Source of the DNA: Alkaliphilus serpentinus
Lineage (GTDB): Bacteria; Bacillota; Clostridia; Peptostreptococcales; Natronincolaceae
Length of the DNA: 64,000 nt
Reading direction: 5' to 3'
Assembly (NCBI RefSeq): GCF_009017255.1
Contig: NZ_WBZB01000010.1
Span: 1-64,000 of the forward strand
The translations under genes and the position numbers were made by a program. Shown here in pieces: positions 1 through 32,543 of the stretch. The first letter of the stretch is position 1. Every line of letters begins with the position of its first letter. The notes beneath the pieces are model-generated. The model was not told where the DNA came from. It did not search any database and worked only from the letters and a program-made list of their open reading frames with translations.

Positions 1-19
1 TAATTTTCTATGGTTAAAA

Positions 20-245
20 TGCTTTTGTTTTCCAGAGAACCCATGCGTTCTCTAGGACACTTCGTTTTCGGTCGTCTCACCGTCTCGACGCCGTTCGTAG
101 CATGGTGTCACTTATTCGTGACACAACTCACCTCTCCTTACTTTAATAAGGGGGAACGCCCCCCTTAACACTTTTTCCTATGAAAAAATAAAAGGTGAGC
201 CGAAGGAACCGCCCACCCATTAACTGTACAACTTCCGGGTTTCCA
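20..245 (-). ncRNA. Hairpin-rich structured element, HEARO/omega-RNA-like candidate
   Basis: This non-coding stretch directly after hydA is unusually rich in strong hairpins on the minus strand. In 5' to 3' order they are: a GGTGGGC/GCTCACC stem (about 216-193); a GGGGG/CCCCC stem (about 165-150); a perfect 7-bp GTGTCAC/GTGACAC stem (about 122-103); a CGTC/GACG stem flanked by CGG and CCG (about 92-68); and an AGAGAAC/GTTCTCT stem (about 55-34). It ends close to the left window edge. The layout (structured RNA reading off the window) resembles HEARO RNAs, now known as omega RNAs encoded just upstream of IscB/IsrB nuclease genes in IS200/IS605-like elements. That identity is recalled and untested; no nuclease gene is visible because the window ends. 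A 38-base core is repeated at 28500-28537. Confidence 0.42.
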
Positions 246-274
246 GTCGAATTGTCCTCTGACTCACATAATTT

Positions 275-2068
275 TTATATTCTTTCCCTCTCTTCATAAT
301 GGGTATGTAATAATCTATGGGCGGTTTCTCCAAAGGGTTTACCTAGGTAGTTTTTATAAAGTTCAATAATCTCTTTATTTTCATGGGATTTTCTTACTTT
401 CTTTTCCCCATCTTCTTGATATAATCCCTGCTGACGCTTTTTAATAACTTCATCATTACCATGGTGAAAGGGCTGTCCTCCTCCACCAATGCACCCTCCT
501 GGGCAAGCCATAATCTCTATAATATCATACTTTGATTTGCCTTCTCTTATCTCCTCTAAAAGCTTCCGAGCATTTCCAAGACCACTTGCTATTCCAATTC
601 TGATTTTTCTATCTCCCATTTCTACCGTTGCATCCTTTAGGCCCGTTGCACCCCTCAGCTGCTGAAAAACTACATCTTCCCCCTTTAGCTCATCTCCTGT
701 TATCCATTCATATGCGGTACGCACAGCCGCTTCAGCAACTCCCCCAGTTGTTCCGAAAATAACAGATGCTCCTGTTGTCTCACCAAGGGGATGATCAAAT
801 TCGCTATCAGGTAATTTAGTAAATTCGATTCCTGCTTCTTTAATCATTGCTCCTAGTTCACGGGTGGTTACCACGATATCCACATGATTATGCTCATCCT
901 TAGTAAGTTCTGGTCTTGCGGCCTCAGCCTTCTTTGCTATACAAGGCATAATAGAAACTACTACTATATTGTCTGGGTCAATTTTATTTCTCTCAGCATA
1001 ATAGGTCTTTGCTATTGCGCCAAACATAATATGGGGTGACTTGGATGTTGACGGTACGTCTAATAGCTCTGGAAATTGATGCTCTATAAATTTAATCCAG
1101 GCTGGACAACAGCTGGTTAACATAGGTAGAGTTTTATTATTCTCTAAGCGATAAATAAATTCAGATGCTTCCTCCATTATGGTTAGATCAGCAGCAAAAT
1201 TGGTATCAAATACAGCATCAAATCCCATACGCTTTAATGCCGTAACCATCTTACCTGTTACCCTTGTTCCTGGCTCCATTCCAAATAACTCTCCTAAGGC
1301 TACACGGATGGCTGGTGCAGTTTGTACAATAACATACTTATCTGGGTCGTTTATAGCTTCCCATACCTTGTCTGTATGATACATTTCTGTAAGGGCAGCT
1401 GTAGGACATACCTGAACACATTGACCACAATAGGTACAGGATGACTCTACCATCGGAATATTAAAGGCTGGTCCTACAAAGGCATTAAAGCCACGACCTA
1501 TTCCCGATAAAATGCCACAGGTTTGAACTACATTGCATCCAGTTTCACATCGCCTACAGTAAATACATTTATTGGAGTCCTTTACGATTGCATCACTGGA
1601 CAGATCTTTAGGATAATCCATTCTTTCTCCTTCCCAGCGAATCTTTCTTACATTCAGCTCTTCAGCTAAGGACTGTAGTTCACACTCTAAATTTTTAGGG
1701 CACGTAAAGCACTCATTTGGATGATTTGATAAGAGGAGTTCAACCGCCATACGTCTAGCCGTTATTGAGCGAATTGTGTCGGTCCTCACCCTCATTTTAT
1801 CGTAGGTCTTTGTTACACAGGCTGGTACAAGTCTATTTCTACTCTTATCCTTTGGATCCACCAATTCTACCATACAAACTCTACAGGAAGCGGTTTTATT
1901 GTATAATTGTAAATCGTGTAAATCTAAATGACACAAAGTTGGAATTTTCACCCCTGCTTCATGGGAAGCTTCTAAAACTGTGATTCCCTCTGGCACTGAC
2001 ATCTCTAGGTCGTTGATCCTTATATGAATCTCTTTTTTAACTTCACTCTTTTTAGTAATATCAGTCAT
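275..2068 (-). CDS. hydA: [FeFe] hydrogenase catalytic subunit (HydA/HndD type)
   Basis: 597-aa catalytic subunit of a cytoplasmic NAD(P)-linked, probably electron-bifurcating [FeFe] hydrogenase that evolves or oxidises H2. Domains: an N-terminal [2Fe-2S] domain (Cys46, 62, 65, 84); a His-Cys3 [4Fe-4S] site (NHPNECFTC, about 115-123); a two-cluster ferredoxin domain (CIYCRRC at 168 and CTYCGQC at 211); then the H-cluster domain with all three signatures, TSCCPAW (318-324), MPCIAKK (374-380) and ACPGGCIGGGGQP (521-533), and the small-subunit tail. Every expected ligand is present, so it should be active. It is the last gene of a four-gene operon, 17 nt after the NuoF-like subunit, with RBS AGGAGAGGTGA before the ATG. 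No clear terminator follows; the structured element at 20-245 begins about 30 nt downstream. Confidence 0.96.
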   Translation of the reverse strand: MTDITKKSEVKKEIHIRINDLEMSVPEGITVLEASHEAGVKIPTLCHLDLHDLQLYNKTASCRVCMVELVDPKDKSRNRLVPACVTKTYDKMRVRTDTIRSITARRMAVELLLSNHPNECFTCPKNLECELQSLAEELNVRKIRWEGERMDYPKDLSSDAIVKDSNKCIYCRRCETGCNVVQTCGILSGIGRGFNAFVGPAFNIPMVESSCTYCGQCVQVCPTAALTEMYHTDKVWEAINDPDKYVIVQTAPAIRVALGELFGMEPGTRVTGKMVTALKRMGFDAVFDTNFAADLTIMEEASEFIYRLENNKTLPMLTSCCPAWIKFIEHQFPELLDVPSTSKSPHIMFGAIAKTYYAERNKIDPDNIVVVSIMPCIAKKAEAARPELTKDEHNHVDIVVTTRELGAMIKEAGIEFTKLPDSEFDHPLGETTGASVIFGTTGGVAEAAVRTAYEWITGDELKGEDVVFQQLRGATGLKDATVEMGDRKIRIGIASGLGNARKLLEEIREGKSKYDIIEIMACPGGCIGGGGQPFHHGNDEVIKKRQQGLYQEDGEKKVRKSHENKEIIELYKNYLGKPFGETAHRLLHTHYEERERI

Positions 2069-2085
2069 ACTCTCACCTCTCCTTG

Positions 2086-3732
2086 TTAAGCTTGTTTTTG
2101 GATTTTATTCTTGGCTGCATATTTTCCTTCTCCCTGGGGGTGATCTACATCCTTAATAAAGTCTAAATATTCATTCCAGAAGTGTTTCATAGTGCTTATT
2201 ACAGGATTGGGAGCAGTTTGACATAAACCACATAAAGAGCTGTCCTTCACCATATAACACAATTGCTTTATAGCATCAAGATCAGCCATGGTTGCATTTC
2301 CACTGGTTATCTTCTTTAATAACTCATAAATTCTTATGGTTCCGATTCTGCCAGGTCCACATTTTCCACAGGCTTCATCCATGGTAAACTCTAAATAAAA
2401 TTTGGCTATATTAACCATGTTATCGTCCTCGTCCATTACAATCATACCGCCAGAGCCCATCATGGAGCCTTTTGCAATTAAGCTATCATAATCTATGGGG
2501 GTATCCAAGTCCTTTTCCGTAATTACCCCGCCGGAAGGCCCTCCAGTCTGTACTGCCTTAAATTTTTTGCCATTGGGAATTCCCCCACCAATATCAAAAA
2601 TGATCTCCCTTAGAGTGATTCCCATGGGTACCTCCACCAAGCCTACATTATTTACCTTACCTGCTAAGGCGAAAACCTTGGTACCACTGCTTTTTTCTGT
2701 CCCTATTGAAGAAAACCATTTTCCTCCCCTATTGATGATAGCTGGAATGTTTGCCAGGGTTTCTACATTATTAACGCAGGTGGGGTGTCCCCAGTATCCC
2801 TCTTCAGCAGGAAATGGCGGCTTAAAATTTGGCTCTCCCCGTTGACCTTCACAGGAATTTAGCAATGCAGTTTCTTCACCACATACAAAGGCTCCTGCGC
2901 CTAGCTTAATATCTATATCAAAGCTAAAATCTGTTCCAAATATATTCTCCCCCAATAAGCCTAGCTCTCTAGCTTGCTTTAGGGCAATATTAAGTCGTGC
3001 TATTGCAAGGGGATACTCTGCTCTAATATATATTAAGCCCTTATCTGCTCCTATTGCATAGCCTCCAATGGCCATTGCTTCAAGAACACTATGGGGATCT
3101 CCCTCTAATATACTCCTATCCATGAATGCTCCAGGGTCACCTTCATCTGCATTACATACCATAAATTTGACCTCGCTGTCCTGCTCCTTGGTTATTCCCC
3201 ACTTTAACCCAGTTGGAAATCCACCACCTCCACGACCGCGAAGTCCTGACTCTTTTACTTCGTTGATTACTTCATTCCTAGTCATAGAGATCAGGACTTT
3301 TCCCAGTGCTTCATATCCCCCTAGGGCTATGTACTCATAAATATCCTCTGGATTAATAAGGCCACAATTTTTTAAGGCTATTCTTAATTGTTTCTTATAA
3401 AAGGACATCTCTTCATGCTTATCAACAACTTTATCCTTCTCCGATTCTTTAAACAATAATCTTTCAACTTTTCGTCCCTTAACGATTTGCTCATCAACAA
3501 TATCCTTGGCATCCTTTGGGCCTACTCTTACATAAAATATATTGTCAGGTTCTATTTTTACGATGGGACCTTGTTCACAAAATCCAAAGCATCCTGTTTT
3601 GACAATCTTAACTTCATCACTATATCCCCGAGCCCTTACGATTAATTCTAAATTCTTAGCTACTTTTTCACTTTCACTTGCCAAGCAGCCTGTCCCTGCA
3701 CAGACCAGTATATTGGTTCGTTCTTTAGCCAT
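2086..3732 (-). CDS. hydB: NADH-binding flavoprotein subunit of hydrogenase (NuoF/HydB/HndC)
   Basis: 548-aa NuoF-type subunit that exchanges electrons between NAD(P)H and the hydrogenase through FMN. It has an N-terminal thioredoxin-like [2Fe-2S] domain (CAGTGC near residue 11, GCFGFC near 47), a glycine-rich nucleotide/FMN site (LRGRGGGGFP, about 164-173), an SLBB region, and the [4Fe-4S] helical-bundle motif CGKCGPGRIG near 455 with a later CGLC. Bifurcating HydB homologues are usually about 600 residues and end in a ferredoxin-like domain with two [4Fe-4S] clusters. Here the protein stops soon after the NuoF core, with no CxxCxxC tail, and hydA begins 17 nt later, so the domain is absent rather than frameshifted out. 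Confidence 0.93.
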   Translation of the reverse strand: MAKERTNILVCAGTGCLASESEKVAKNLELIVRARGYSDEVKIVKTGCFGFCEQGPIVKIEPDNIFYVRVGPKDAKDIVDEQIVKGRKVERLLFKESEKDKVVDKHEEMSFYKKQLRIALKNCGLINPEDIYEYIALGGYEALGKVLISMTRNEVINEVKESGLRGRGGGGFPTGLKWGITKEQDSEVKFMVCNADEGDPGAFMDRSILEGDPHSVLEAMAIGGYAIGADKGLIYIRAEYPLAIARLNIALKQARELGLLGENIFGTDFSFDIDIKLGAGAFVCGEETALLNSCEGQRGEPNFKPPFPAEEGYWGHPTCVNNVETLANIPAIINRGGKWFSSIGTEKSSGTKVFALAGKVNNVGLVEVPMGITLREIIFDIGGGIPNGKKFKAVQTGGPSGGVITEKDLDTPIDYDSLIAKGSMMGSGGMIVMDEDDNMVNIAKFYLEFTMDEACGKCGPGRIGTIRIYELLKKITSGNATMADLDAIKQLCYMVKDSSLCGLCQTAPNPVISTMKHFWNEYLDFIKDVDHPQGEGKYAAKNKIQKQA

Positions 3733-3744
3733 ATATGGTACCTC

Positions 3745-4134
3745 CTATCCTCTGGTATGTCTAATATCTATCTTTAGGTTTTGAATCACAACCCCTTTAT
3801 GGATATGACTTTCTACGATATCCTTTACCTTATCTTCCGTTATATTTCCATAGAGCACAGGCTCTTGTCCTGGAATATTGATTTGTACAGTTGGCTCTGA
3901 ATGGCAGTAGCCTATACAGCCTACAGGAATTACTCGAACATTATCTATTTTCTTCTTTGCTAATTCATCAACAAATCTATTTAGTATTCCTCTTGCTCCT
4001 GCAGATATCCCGCAGGTTCCCATTCCAACAAGAATCTCTATTGATTCCCCCCTTGCCTCTCCATGTCTCAGGTTAACTCCCCCCATGGATTCCTCTCTGA
4101 TTTTTTTCAGTTCCTCTAAAGATTTGATCTTCAT
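3745..4134 (-). CDS. Thioredoxin-like [2Fe-2S] ferredoxin (HndB-like)
   Basis: 129-aa protein of the thioredoxin-like [2Fe-2S] ferredoxin family, resembling HndB of the Desulfovibrio NADP-reducing hydrogenase. After an N-terminal basic helix, cluster ligands appear as the pair in GTCGISAGA (about 39-47) and the pair in GCIGYCHSEP (about 87-96), the usual C-x4-C ... C-x3-C pattern of this fold. It lies 12 nt from both the NuoE-like gene upstream and the NuoF-like gene downstream, so it is co-transcribed and probably forms a fourth subunit or electron-relay module. The gene order A-B-C-D matches hndABCD. Role in the complex is inferred. Confidence 0.88.
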   Translation of the reverse strand: MKIKSLEELKKIREESMGGVNLRHGEARGESIEILVGMGTCGISAGARGILNRFVDELAKKKIDNVRVIPVGCIGYCHSEPTVQINIPGQEPVLYGNITEDKVKDIVESHIHKGVVIQNLKIDIRHTRG

Positions 4135-4146
4135 CTCAATACCTCC

Positions 4147-4659
4147 CTAGCTCCTATACTTTTCAATAATGTCGTCTAGCTCATTTTCTTTAACCCTACC
4201 AAAAACCTTATCATCCACCATAACCACTGGTGCCAGCCCACAGGCACCAATACACCGAACATCCTTTAAGGTGAAGAGTCCATCCTCTGTTATTTCATTT
4301 GACTCTACATTAAGCTTTTCTTTAAGCCCTTCAATAATTTTATCTGCTCCCCTCACAAAGCATGCAGTTCCCATACATACACTGATGGTATGTTTTCCCC
4401 TGGGCTTCGTTGTAAAGTATGAATAAAAGCTGACTACTCCAAACACTTCTGCTCCTGGTATTCCCAGCTTCCTAGCTACAAATAGCTGAACATCCCTAGG
4501 TAAGTACCCGAAAATACTTTGAGCCTTATGAAGTATCGCTATTAAGGCTCCTTTGGTGGTTTCCATTTCATCAATAAACCCCTCTAGCTCATCAAACTTT
4601 TCCTTTGGCAGGTCTTCATTTACTGGTGCCGTTACACTTATGGATTGTGGTTTAGTCAT
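4147..4659 (-). CDS. hydC: NuoE-like [2Fe-2S] hydrogenase subunit (HydC/HndA)
   Basis: 170-aa NuoE (24 kDa) homologue and first gene of the hydrogenase operon. It has the N-terminal helical bundle of this family (roughly 20-85) followed by the thioredoxin-like [2Fe-2S] domain with ligands in CMGTACFVRG (about 95-104) and CIGACGLAPV (about 136-145). In bifurcating hydrogenases it relays electrons between the flavoprotein and the catalytic subunit. The ATG follows an AAGGGATGG ribosome-binding site. The upstream AT-rich region (4660-5083) must hold the operon promoter; no unambiguous sigma-A boxes or Rex operator were found. Confidence 0.94.
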   Translation of the reverse strand: MTKPQSISVTAPVNEDLPKEKFDELEGFIDEMETTKGALIAILHKAQSIFGYLPRDVQLFVARKLGIPGAEVFGVVSFYSYFTTKPRGKHTISVCMGTACFVRGADKIIEGLKEKLNVESNEITEDGLFTLKDVRCIGACGLAPVVMVDDKVFGRVKENELDDIIEKYRS

Positions 4660-28441: not shown

Positions 28442-28479
28442 CATTTAATAGGAAAATTCTATTTGTTACCTATTAAATG
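28442..28479. repeat. Perfect 11-bp inverted repeat
   Basis: CATTTAATAGG (28442-28452) and CCTATTAAATG (28469-28479) flank a 16-nt AT-rich loop. It lies directly upstream of the 38-base repeat core at 28500 and may be part of the same mobile element remnant. Confidence 0.6.
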
Positions 28480-28490
28480 GGGGTTTTTAA

Positions 28491-28537
28491 GGGGCCCCTC
28501 CCCCTTATTAAAGTAAGGAGAGGTGAGTTGTGTCACG
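28491..28537 (+). repeat. Truncated inverted copy of the 1-245 structured element
   Basis: From 28500 to 28537 the sequence is identical over 38 bases to the minus strand of 154-117 and includes the CCTTA/TAAGG stem and the left arm GTGTCAC. Directly upstream is TTAAGGGG, also shared, forming the G/C-run stem. Similarity stops after the GTGTCACG, so only part of the element is present. It sits between the M1 and M23 peptidase genes. Confidence 0.7.
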
Positions 28538-28581
28538 GAAATGCTTTTGATCAAGAATATTTTTTACCAAATCAATCCTTT

Positions 28582-32390: not shown

Positions 32391-32465
32391 TGGTGACCCC
32401 TAGGGGAATCGAACCCCTGTTACCGCCGTGAAAGGGCGGTGTCTTAACCGCTTGACCAAGGGGCC
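32391..32465 (-). tRNA. tRNA-Glu (UUC)
   Basis: 75-nt cloverleaf on the minus strand with encoded CCA. Acceptor GGCCCCT/AGGGGTC, D-arm GGTCAAGCGGTTAAGAC, anticodon loop CTTTCAC with anticodon TTC, and T-loop GGTTCGATTCC are all present. It is followed 2 nt later on the plus map by tRNA-Lys, so the two are co-transcribed with Lys first. Confidence 0.97.
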
Positions 32466-32467
32466 AA

Positions 32468-32543
32468 TGGTGACCCATCCGCGACTCGAACGCGGGACAC
32501 CCTGATTAAAAGTCAGGTGCTCTACCGACTGAGCTAATGGGTC
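32468..32543 (-). tRNA. tRNA-Lys (UUU)
   Basis: 76-nt cloverleaf on the minus strand with encoded CCA. Acceptor GACCCAT/ATGGGTC, D-arm TAGCTCAGTCGGTAGAGC, anticodon loop CTTTTAA with anticodon TTT, T-arm CGCGTTCGAGTCGCG. Located upstream of tRNA-Glu in the same transcript. Confidence 0.97.

Follow-up and report, generated by a model that had tools for sequence, protein, structure and literature searches.

Features at the left edge of the window

The window analysed here is a stretch of 64,000 nucleotides (G000:C2:1-64000) which forms the start of contig C2 in a genome of 3.29 Mb. Close to its left end lies a group of [FeFe] hydrogenase genes (275-4659), encoding the catalytic subunit, a NuoF-like subunit and two thioredoxin-like ferredoxin proteins. 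Two adjoining tRNA genes are found further inside, on the minus strand (32394-32543). The window carries two damaged copies of a repeat, one behind hydA at the left edge and one in the interior, and their parts are listed together with the neighboring features in Table 1. The copy at the left edge is cut by the contig end, with about 23 nt missing, and the second arm of its terminal hairpin H5 falls beyond position 1. The second arm of its end palindrome H1 is also absent. In the interior copy, the end of H5 is fused directly to a piece made up of H1, H2 and the first part of the long-form domain.

Table 1 Features of the repeat copies and their surroundings in the window. R1 is a covariance model built from the short core of the repeat; A1, A3 and A4 are the alignments described in the text.
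Feature	Position	Strand	Basis
hydA	275-2068	minus	Fe_hyd_lg_C, E 4.3e-102
hydA intrinsic terminator	183-217	minus	stem 217-211/200-194, loop 210-201, T-rich tract 193-183; by eye
Repeat copy, long form	1-182	minus	R1 match 24-166 minus, 43.5 bits, E 1.5e-7
H1 end-palindrome remnant, first arm alone	163-182	minus	comparison with full copies
Hairpin H2	147-167	minus	inverted repeat and fold; H2 of alignments A1 and A4
Inner hairpin of the long form (GTGTCAC/GTGACAC)	105-124	minus	fold; compensatory change in A3
Second inner hairpin of the long form	69-93	minus	fold; compensatory changes in A3
Hairpin H4	32-56	minus	inverted repeat and fold; compensatory changes in A1 and A4
H5 first arm and loop (terminal, terminator-like)	1-28	minus	comparison with full copies
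Second repeat copy, internally deleted	28443-28552	plus	R1 match 28477-28576 plus, 39.3 bits, E 1.3e-6

Folding of window 1-240 on the minus strand gives -78.6 kcal/mol in comparison to a shuffle mean of -62.1 (z -3.47), and none of 200 shuffles folded as well. The plus strand is nearly equal in folding (z -3.17), as expected of inverted repeats. Twelve inverted repeats lie within window 1-400; these include perfect repeats (147-154/160-167; 105-111/118-124) as well as an imperfect repeat spanning 27-60. The first-pass annotation had described five hairpins on the minus strand after hydA, and all five were found. Reading from hydA, these are 217-194, 167-147, 124-105, 93-69 and 56-32, of which the last four are present in the minimum-energy fold of the minus strand. 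The hairpin 217-194 and its T-rich tract were recognised by eye from the sequence. It was missed by the pattern scan because its loop measures 10 nt, the scan maximum being 8, and in the minimum-energy fold its arm 194-200 is paired with 127-133 and not with its terminator partner. Read by eye, this hairpin is hydA's own terminator and lies outside the repeat. Two full repeat copies from elsewhere fold better still (z -5.73 and -5.26).

A dispersed repeat with sharp ends

All or part of window 1-170 is repeated many times in its own genome, with 42 match rows at E<=0.001; among these rows are the self-match of the window, additional pieces of copies already matched and a hydA-like row (query 291-1027). 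Aligned together with their flanks, the copies show sharp ends and unrelated flanking DNA. The left end of full copies lies about 23 nt beyond window position 1, and the other end, on the minus strand, directly adjoins the T-tract. Two forms exist side by side, a long one of ~245 nt and a short one of ~175 nt that is devoid of the inner domain. The parts follow each other in the order H1 palindrome, H2, a variable H3 region, H4, and H5 with a T-rich tail. Many copies are shortened or decayed, and they stand behind unrelated genes. The earlier description of the left edge as structured, RNA-like sequence of a mobile element thus holds in so far as the repeat is dispersed in many copies, has sharply defined ends and shows covariation in its helices, and mobility is what these properties suggest. 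Many contig ends of the window's genome, including window position 1, fall at the repeat, with a number of match rows within ~100 nt of the end.

A search of the window's family (f1) with R1 detected the repeat in 4 of 20 genomes. The own genome yielded 51 matches, G008 74, G017 23 and G007 a single one, where some long copies give rise to two matches. When named genomes were scanned for the pattern, 34 stretches were returned, hosted by a Clostridiaceae MAG (M1-B18), Alkaliphilus peptidifermentans, A. pronyensis and a Desulfitobacteriaceae MAG. No match was obtained with the long-form query against phages and plasmids, or with the repeat pattern against IMG/VR. Locus L100, with pieces 2 kb apart, was considered as an autonomous version and rejected, as it consists of two decayed copies behind two different genes. 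H1-like palindromes without any remaining element occur in G274, G360 and G310 (e.g., L232:396-434) and might represent minimal forms, remnants or something else.

Conservation of the predicted fold

Alignment A1 comprises 41 short-form sequences. Seven of its 24 predicted pairs change on both sides with pairing kept, all of them in H1 and H4. Among the 18 long-form sequences of alignment A3, compensatory changes are seen in 6 of 38 pairs. The sequence of H5 varies among genomes, and its hairpin and T-rich tail are kept throughout; a separate scan scored H5 as terminator-like in L213 and L096. Within the consensus Watson-Crick helices, departures of the G-T type outnumber those of the A-C type by 19 vs 3 in A1 and by 8 vs 2 in A3. 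The comparison, made on small numbers from related sequences with structures predicted on that strand, points to the minus strand as the one that folds.

Relation to the Clostridiales-2 RNA

For a class-wide search with R1, a sample of 391 genomes was drawn evenly from the class. Beyond the own genome, two marginal matches were obtained (G377 and G116). The match in G116 (L171) shows just an H2-like hairpin by eye and no match to the Rfam model RF02937 up to E 1. The match in G377 was confirmed and led to a large diverged group of relatives (f31) in another part of Clostridia. In a search around G377, 10 of 21 genomes match its sequence, some weakly or by the H1 palindrome alone, and 20 aligned copies of this group have their parts in the same order as the window's family.

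Diverged relatives at L213, L217 and L170 match RF02937, the Clostridiales-2 RNA, at 76-82 bits and thereby above the gathering cut-off of 58.6. This RNA was reportedly described by Weinberg and others in 2017. The window's own copy scores 17.7 bits, sister copies 26.1 bits (L079) and 22.5-28.2 bits (three other loci), and the best score in the own genome is 31.4 bits (E 2.2e-5), all below the cut-off. The window's family aligns to RF02937 in the same register as the diverged group, and R1 and RF02937 pick the identical place in L170. In a joint alignment of 24 sequences (A4), for which H2 and H4 were scored, 89.7% of cells are paired and 6 of 13 pairs show changes on both sides. H4 is the stronger helix with 97.0% of cells paired; for H2 the value is 81.3%. 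Four of five covariation measures exceed all 500 shuffles and all slid versions of A4, and the fifth, which counts further pair types, is not above the shuffles, 394 of 500 reaching the same value. Since register and helices are shared and the scores of the own family lie below 58.6, the core of the repeat is, as judged from sequence comparison, homologous to the Clostridiales-2 RNA, yet no member by Rfam score.

Across the class, RF02937 matches were found in 29 of 391 genomes, 19 of these above the cut-off. With 11 candidates scored per genome, copy numbers from this survey are lower bounds. A literature search, largely at the level of titles and abstract openings, returned no description of the element and no paper naming the Clostridiales-2 RNA motif.

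In two families most copies stand behind terminator-like hairpins

The position of the copies was assessed for 79 distinct, BLAST-confirmed copies in which H1 could be recognised and 62 nt of flank were available; f1 contributed 62 of these and f31 17. Copies with no recognisable H1, with a flank shorter than 62 nt or with a flank already counted were dropped beforehand, as were the window copies. A hairpin of -6 kcal/mol or lower with a T-tract stands directly before H1 in 58 of the 79 copies (f1 43, f31 15). At a threshold of -4 kcal/mol, a terminator-like hairpin precedes H1 in 64 copies (f1 48, f31 16), and 15 copies are devoid of a hairpin of even this strength. Uniformly drawn control positions scored 40/600 at -6 kcal/mol and 57/600 at -4, T-rich positions 102/600 and 171/600, and the closest control, T-rich positions 40-150 nt behind an ORF, 135/600 and 189/600. 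The distance from the hairpin to H1, a value that varies with the number of A-T pairs the fold borrows from the T-tract, is 5 or 6 nt in 38 of the 58 cases and 7-10 nt in the remainder. At least four T are present among the 8 nt preceding H1 in 78 of 79 copies. In 51 of 79 copies, the 250 nt upstream contain the end of a same-strand open stretch of at least 100 codons; among random positions, this is true of 152 of 1000. The terminator of hydA stands before the window copy in the same way and is the probable landing site of that copy.

The count of 58/79 supersedes an earlier one of 37/59 (controls 10/600 and 75/600), made with a detector limited to short loops. A second earlier count (43/79 for f1, 15/18 for f31 and 0/1 for other; controls 52/1000 and 168/1000) is superseded because its copy list admitted chance pattern matches. 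Outside f1 and f31 the terminator rule looks weaker. When 23 of 30 RF02937 loci, chiefly from other families, were inspected by eye, a terminator stood directly before H1 in 7; excluding four f31 loci and one without flank, this was the case in 4 of 18.

Copies are also found behind the element's own end. Six junctions consist of an H5-type hairpin and T-tract, followed by H1. In L103 the hairpin and T-tract are followed by a further copy, and in L120, L122 and L219 the copy stands behind an H5-type hairpin. At the other junctions, an H1 palindrome comes after an H5-type hairpin (L195) or an apparent H1 fragment is seen (L028). In G008, a lone H5-type hairpin with T-tract lies directly before a complete short-form copy (L120:3797-3820 and L122:4775-4798). 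In L241 (G170), H5 and the preceding terminator are nearly identical, including the bases after the T-tract, which could reflect a target duplication or chance.

A Clostridiales-2 copy in G054 (L243:1501-1582) is contained, in frame, in an open frame of 858 codons matching PDDEXK_1 (E 4.5e-49), which we take for addB-like. A nearly identical sequence is present in G295 (L244). This in-frame copy resembles palindromic elements that insert into coding genes.

Survey of candidate mobilising enzymes

Enzyme genes were surveyed in 30 of the 32 known carriers; the weak-scoring G166 and G195 were left out. Y1 transposase genes are present in 26 of the 30, and in 22 of the 23 carriers of good quality, with none in the near-complete carrier G190. 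They are also found in 34 of 41 relatives, a set made up of carriers and non-carriers, and are about equally common where the element is absent. Sixteen of 21 Y1 matches in the four f1 carriers were examined, and none is directly flanked by a copy. In L134, part of a copy lies ~1.4 kb upstream of a Y1 gene, with other ORFs in between. No enzyme encoded by the element or flanking it was found in these surveys.

Among the four f1 carriers, RVT_1 is without a match in two, occurs as pieces interrupted by stop codons in a third and as a 96-aa remnant in the fourth, so that none holds an intact reverse transcriptase. In the wider set of 30 carriers, 16 have a match to RVT_1 and 14 have none. A reverse transcriptase gene interrupted by stop codons is located at G000:C34:77032-77660 in the window's genome. 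By eye, the two ends of the repeat are not inverted copies of one another, and there is no constant target duplication.

Discussion

The repeat described here is a dispersed, probably mobile element that adjoins terminators. The explanation that we favor, and regard as reasonably probable, is a terminator-targeting small non-coding repeat which is defined by the fold of one strand and contains a Clostridiales-2-like core. Its copies would move, or would have moved in the past, as a unit, and the folded strand may be what is recognised. The repeat would have colonised positions immediately 3' of T-tracts, for the most part those of intrinsic terminators, in a single orientation relative to these. 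In favor of this explanation are the sharp ends and unrelated flanks, the compensatory changes, the shared register of the RF02937 matches, the enrichment of terminator-like hairpins and of T before H1, and the junctions of H5-type hairpins with H1. Against it stand the 15 copies devoid of a hairpin, the lower share of terminators before H1 in other families, the in-frame copy, the one covariation measure that does not exceed the shuffles, and the outcome of the enzyme survey, including the similar frequency of Y1 genes in relatives that lack the element and their absence from G190. As its own H5 end is terminator-like, every insertion would create a new possible landing site and cause little harm to the gene in front. 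With ~245 nt the element is too short for a transposase gene, and the enzyme must therefore come from elsewhere. Our best guess for the mover, offered tentatively, is a Y1 (HUH) transposase of the IS200/REP kind, which acts on single strands; end hairpins and a single orientation are consistent with such a mechanism. A broader proposal, which we put forward as a speculative possibility, is that the Clostridiales-2 RNA forms the core of a class of mobile elements homing on terminators. In such a class, the element's own end would serve both as right end and as a copy of the target, chains would arise behind genes that are spared, and a folded single strand, either DNA or RNA, would be the substrate.

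Four other explanations were weighed. The first-pass annotation had likened the left edge to the HEARO/omega RNA that accompanies an IscB- or IsrB-type nuclease, with the nuclease gene starting just left of the window; a strong fold at a contig edge and a mobile-looking sequence speak for this reading. The HEARO model, however, has no match in the window at its gathering score, and with the limit relaxed to E 10 there is still no match in window 1-300 or anywhere in the genome. RRXRR (PF14239), which we take to be the IscB-type domain, gives one match in the genome at 12.1 bits, vs a cut-off of 25, on contig C41, where no repeat copy is listed. Although the DNA to the left of the window copy lies beyond the assembly, full copies elsewhere stop ~23 nt further left and have unrelated flanks. 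With HEARO and nuclease searches negative, an IscB omega RNA was rejected, and we consider it extremely improbable. Ordinary small RNA genes or 3' regulatory elements, spread by occasional recombination and not as a mobile unit, would agree with the Rfam classification of Clostridiales-2 as an sRNA gene, with the conserved helices and with the terminator-like end. Scanning of three loci, however, revealed no promoter-like site inside the element on its strand; in L213 such a site is located just upstream of the element, overlapping the preceding terminator. Moreover, copies follow unrelated genes, many are cut down or decayed, and one occupies an in-frame position within a gene, so that we hold this explanation to be unlikely.

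An element copied through RNA, whether derived from a group IIC intron or arising as an H5-ended transcript that is reverse-transcribed back at terminators, would account for the position of the copies, as one report (PMC4424553) describes insertion of group IIC introns at intrinsic terminator motifs; the tolerance of G-T over A-C departures is likewise RNA-like. Speaking against it, no Rfam group II intron match above cut-off was obtained in the window, and RVT_1 is absent or broken in the f1 carriers and without match in 14 of 30 carriers, which disfavors a reverse transcriptase as the mover. Group II introns begin with GUGYG, and the start of the element lacks this motif. We judge an RNA-copied origin to be unlikely, too. 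Size, copy number, internal deletions and intergenic position would all agree with a conventional miniature inverted-repeat element that depends on a DDE transposase for its movement, but the two ends, as inspected by eye, are not inverted copies and a constant target duplication is missing, which makes this explanation rather improbable.

If the favored explanation of a terminator-targeting repeat is right, a family filed by Rfam under sRNA genes would gain a proposed nature, namely the inner part of a dispersed repeat behind terminators in at least two bacterial families. The comparison supplies the element ends that the Rfam model is missing and extends the family to Alkaliphilus and relatives. 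The repeat also accounts for assembly breaks at its copies in these genomes. Furthermore, a fold of this kind should not be taken for a regulatory RNA of the neighboring gene, here hydA.

Among the known systems closest to the repeat, the Clostridiales-2 RNA shares with it the core from H2 to the first arm of H4 in order and register. The Rfam model, of 82 positions, differs in having neither the H1 end palindrome nor the H5 terminal hairpin, and the Rfam entry is typed 'Gene; sRNA' without mention of mobility. HEARO (RF02033) resembles the repeat as a structured non-coding sequence of ~200 nt tied to mobile DNA, but the repeat does not match its model and the genome has no nuclease gene above cut-off. 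REP/REPIN and IS200/IS605-type repeats, whose mobilisation is ascribed, firmly or presumptively, to single-strand Y1 transposases (PMC8266576), have in common with the repeat the hairpins at both ends, the high copy number and one orientation relative to the target. In contrast to these, the repeat is larger, has a conserved inner RNA-like fold, shows by eye no GTAG tag before the palindrome, and was not found directly flanking any of the 16 Y1 loci examined. Group IIC introns differ from the repeat in that its ~175-245 nt are too short for a catalytic RNA with domains V/VI, no group II match was found in the window, and no intact reverse transcriptase is present in the four family carriers. 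They share with it the insertion behind intrinsic terminators, seen for the repeat in 58 of 79 copies and weaker outside f1 and f31. As group IIC introns are described as targeting motifs of intrinsic terminators (PMC4424553), terminator targeting exists among mobile elements, and the repeat would offer a testable second case alongside them.
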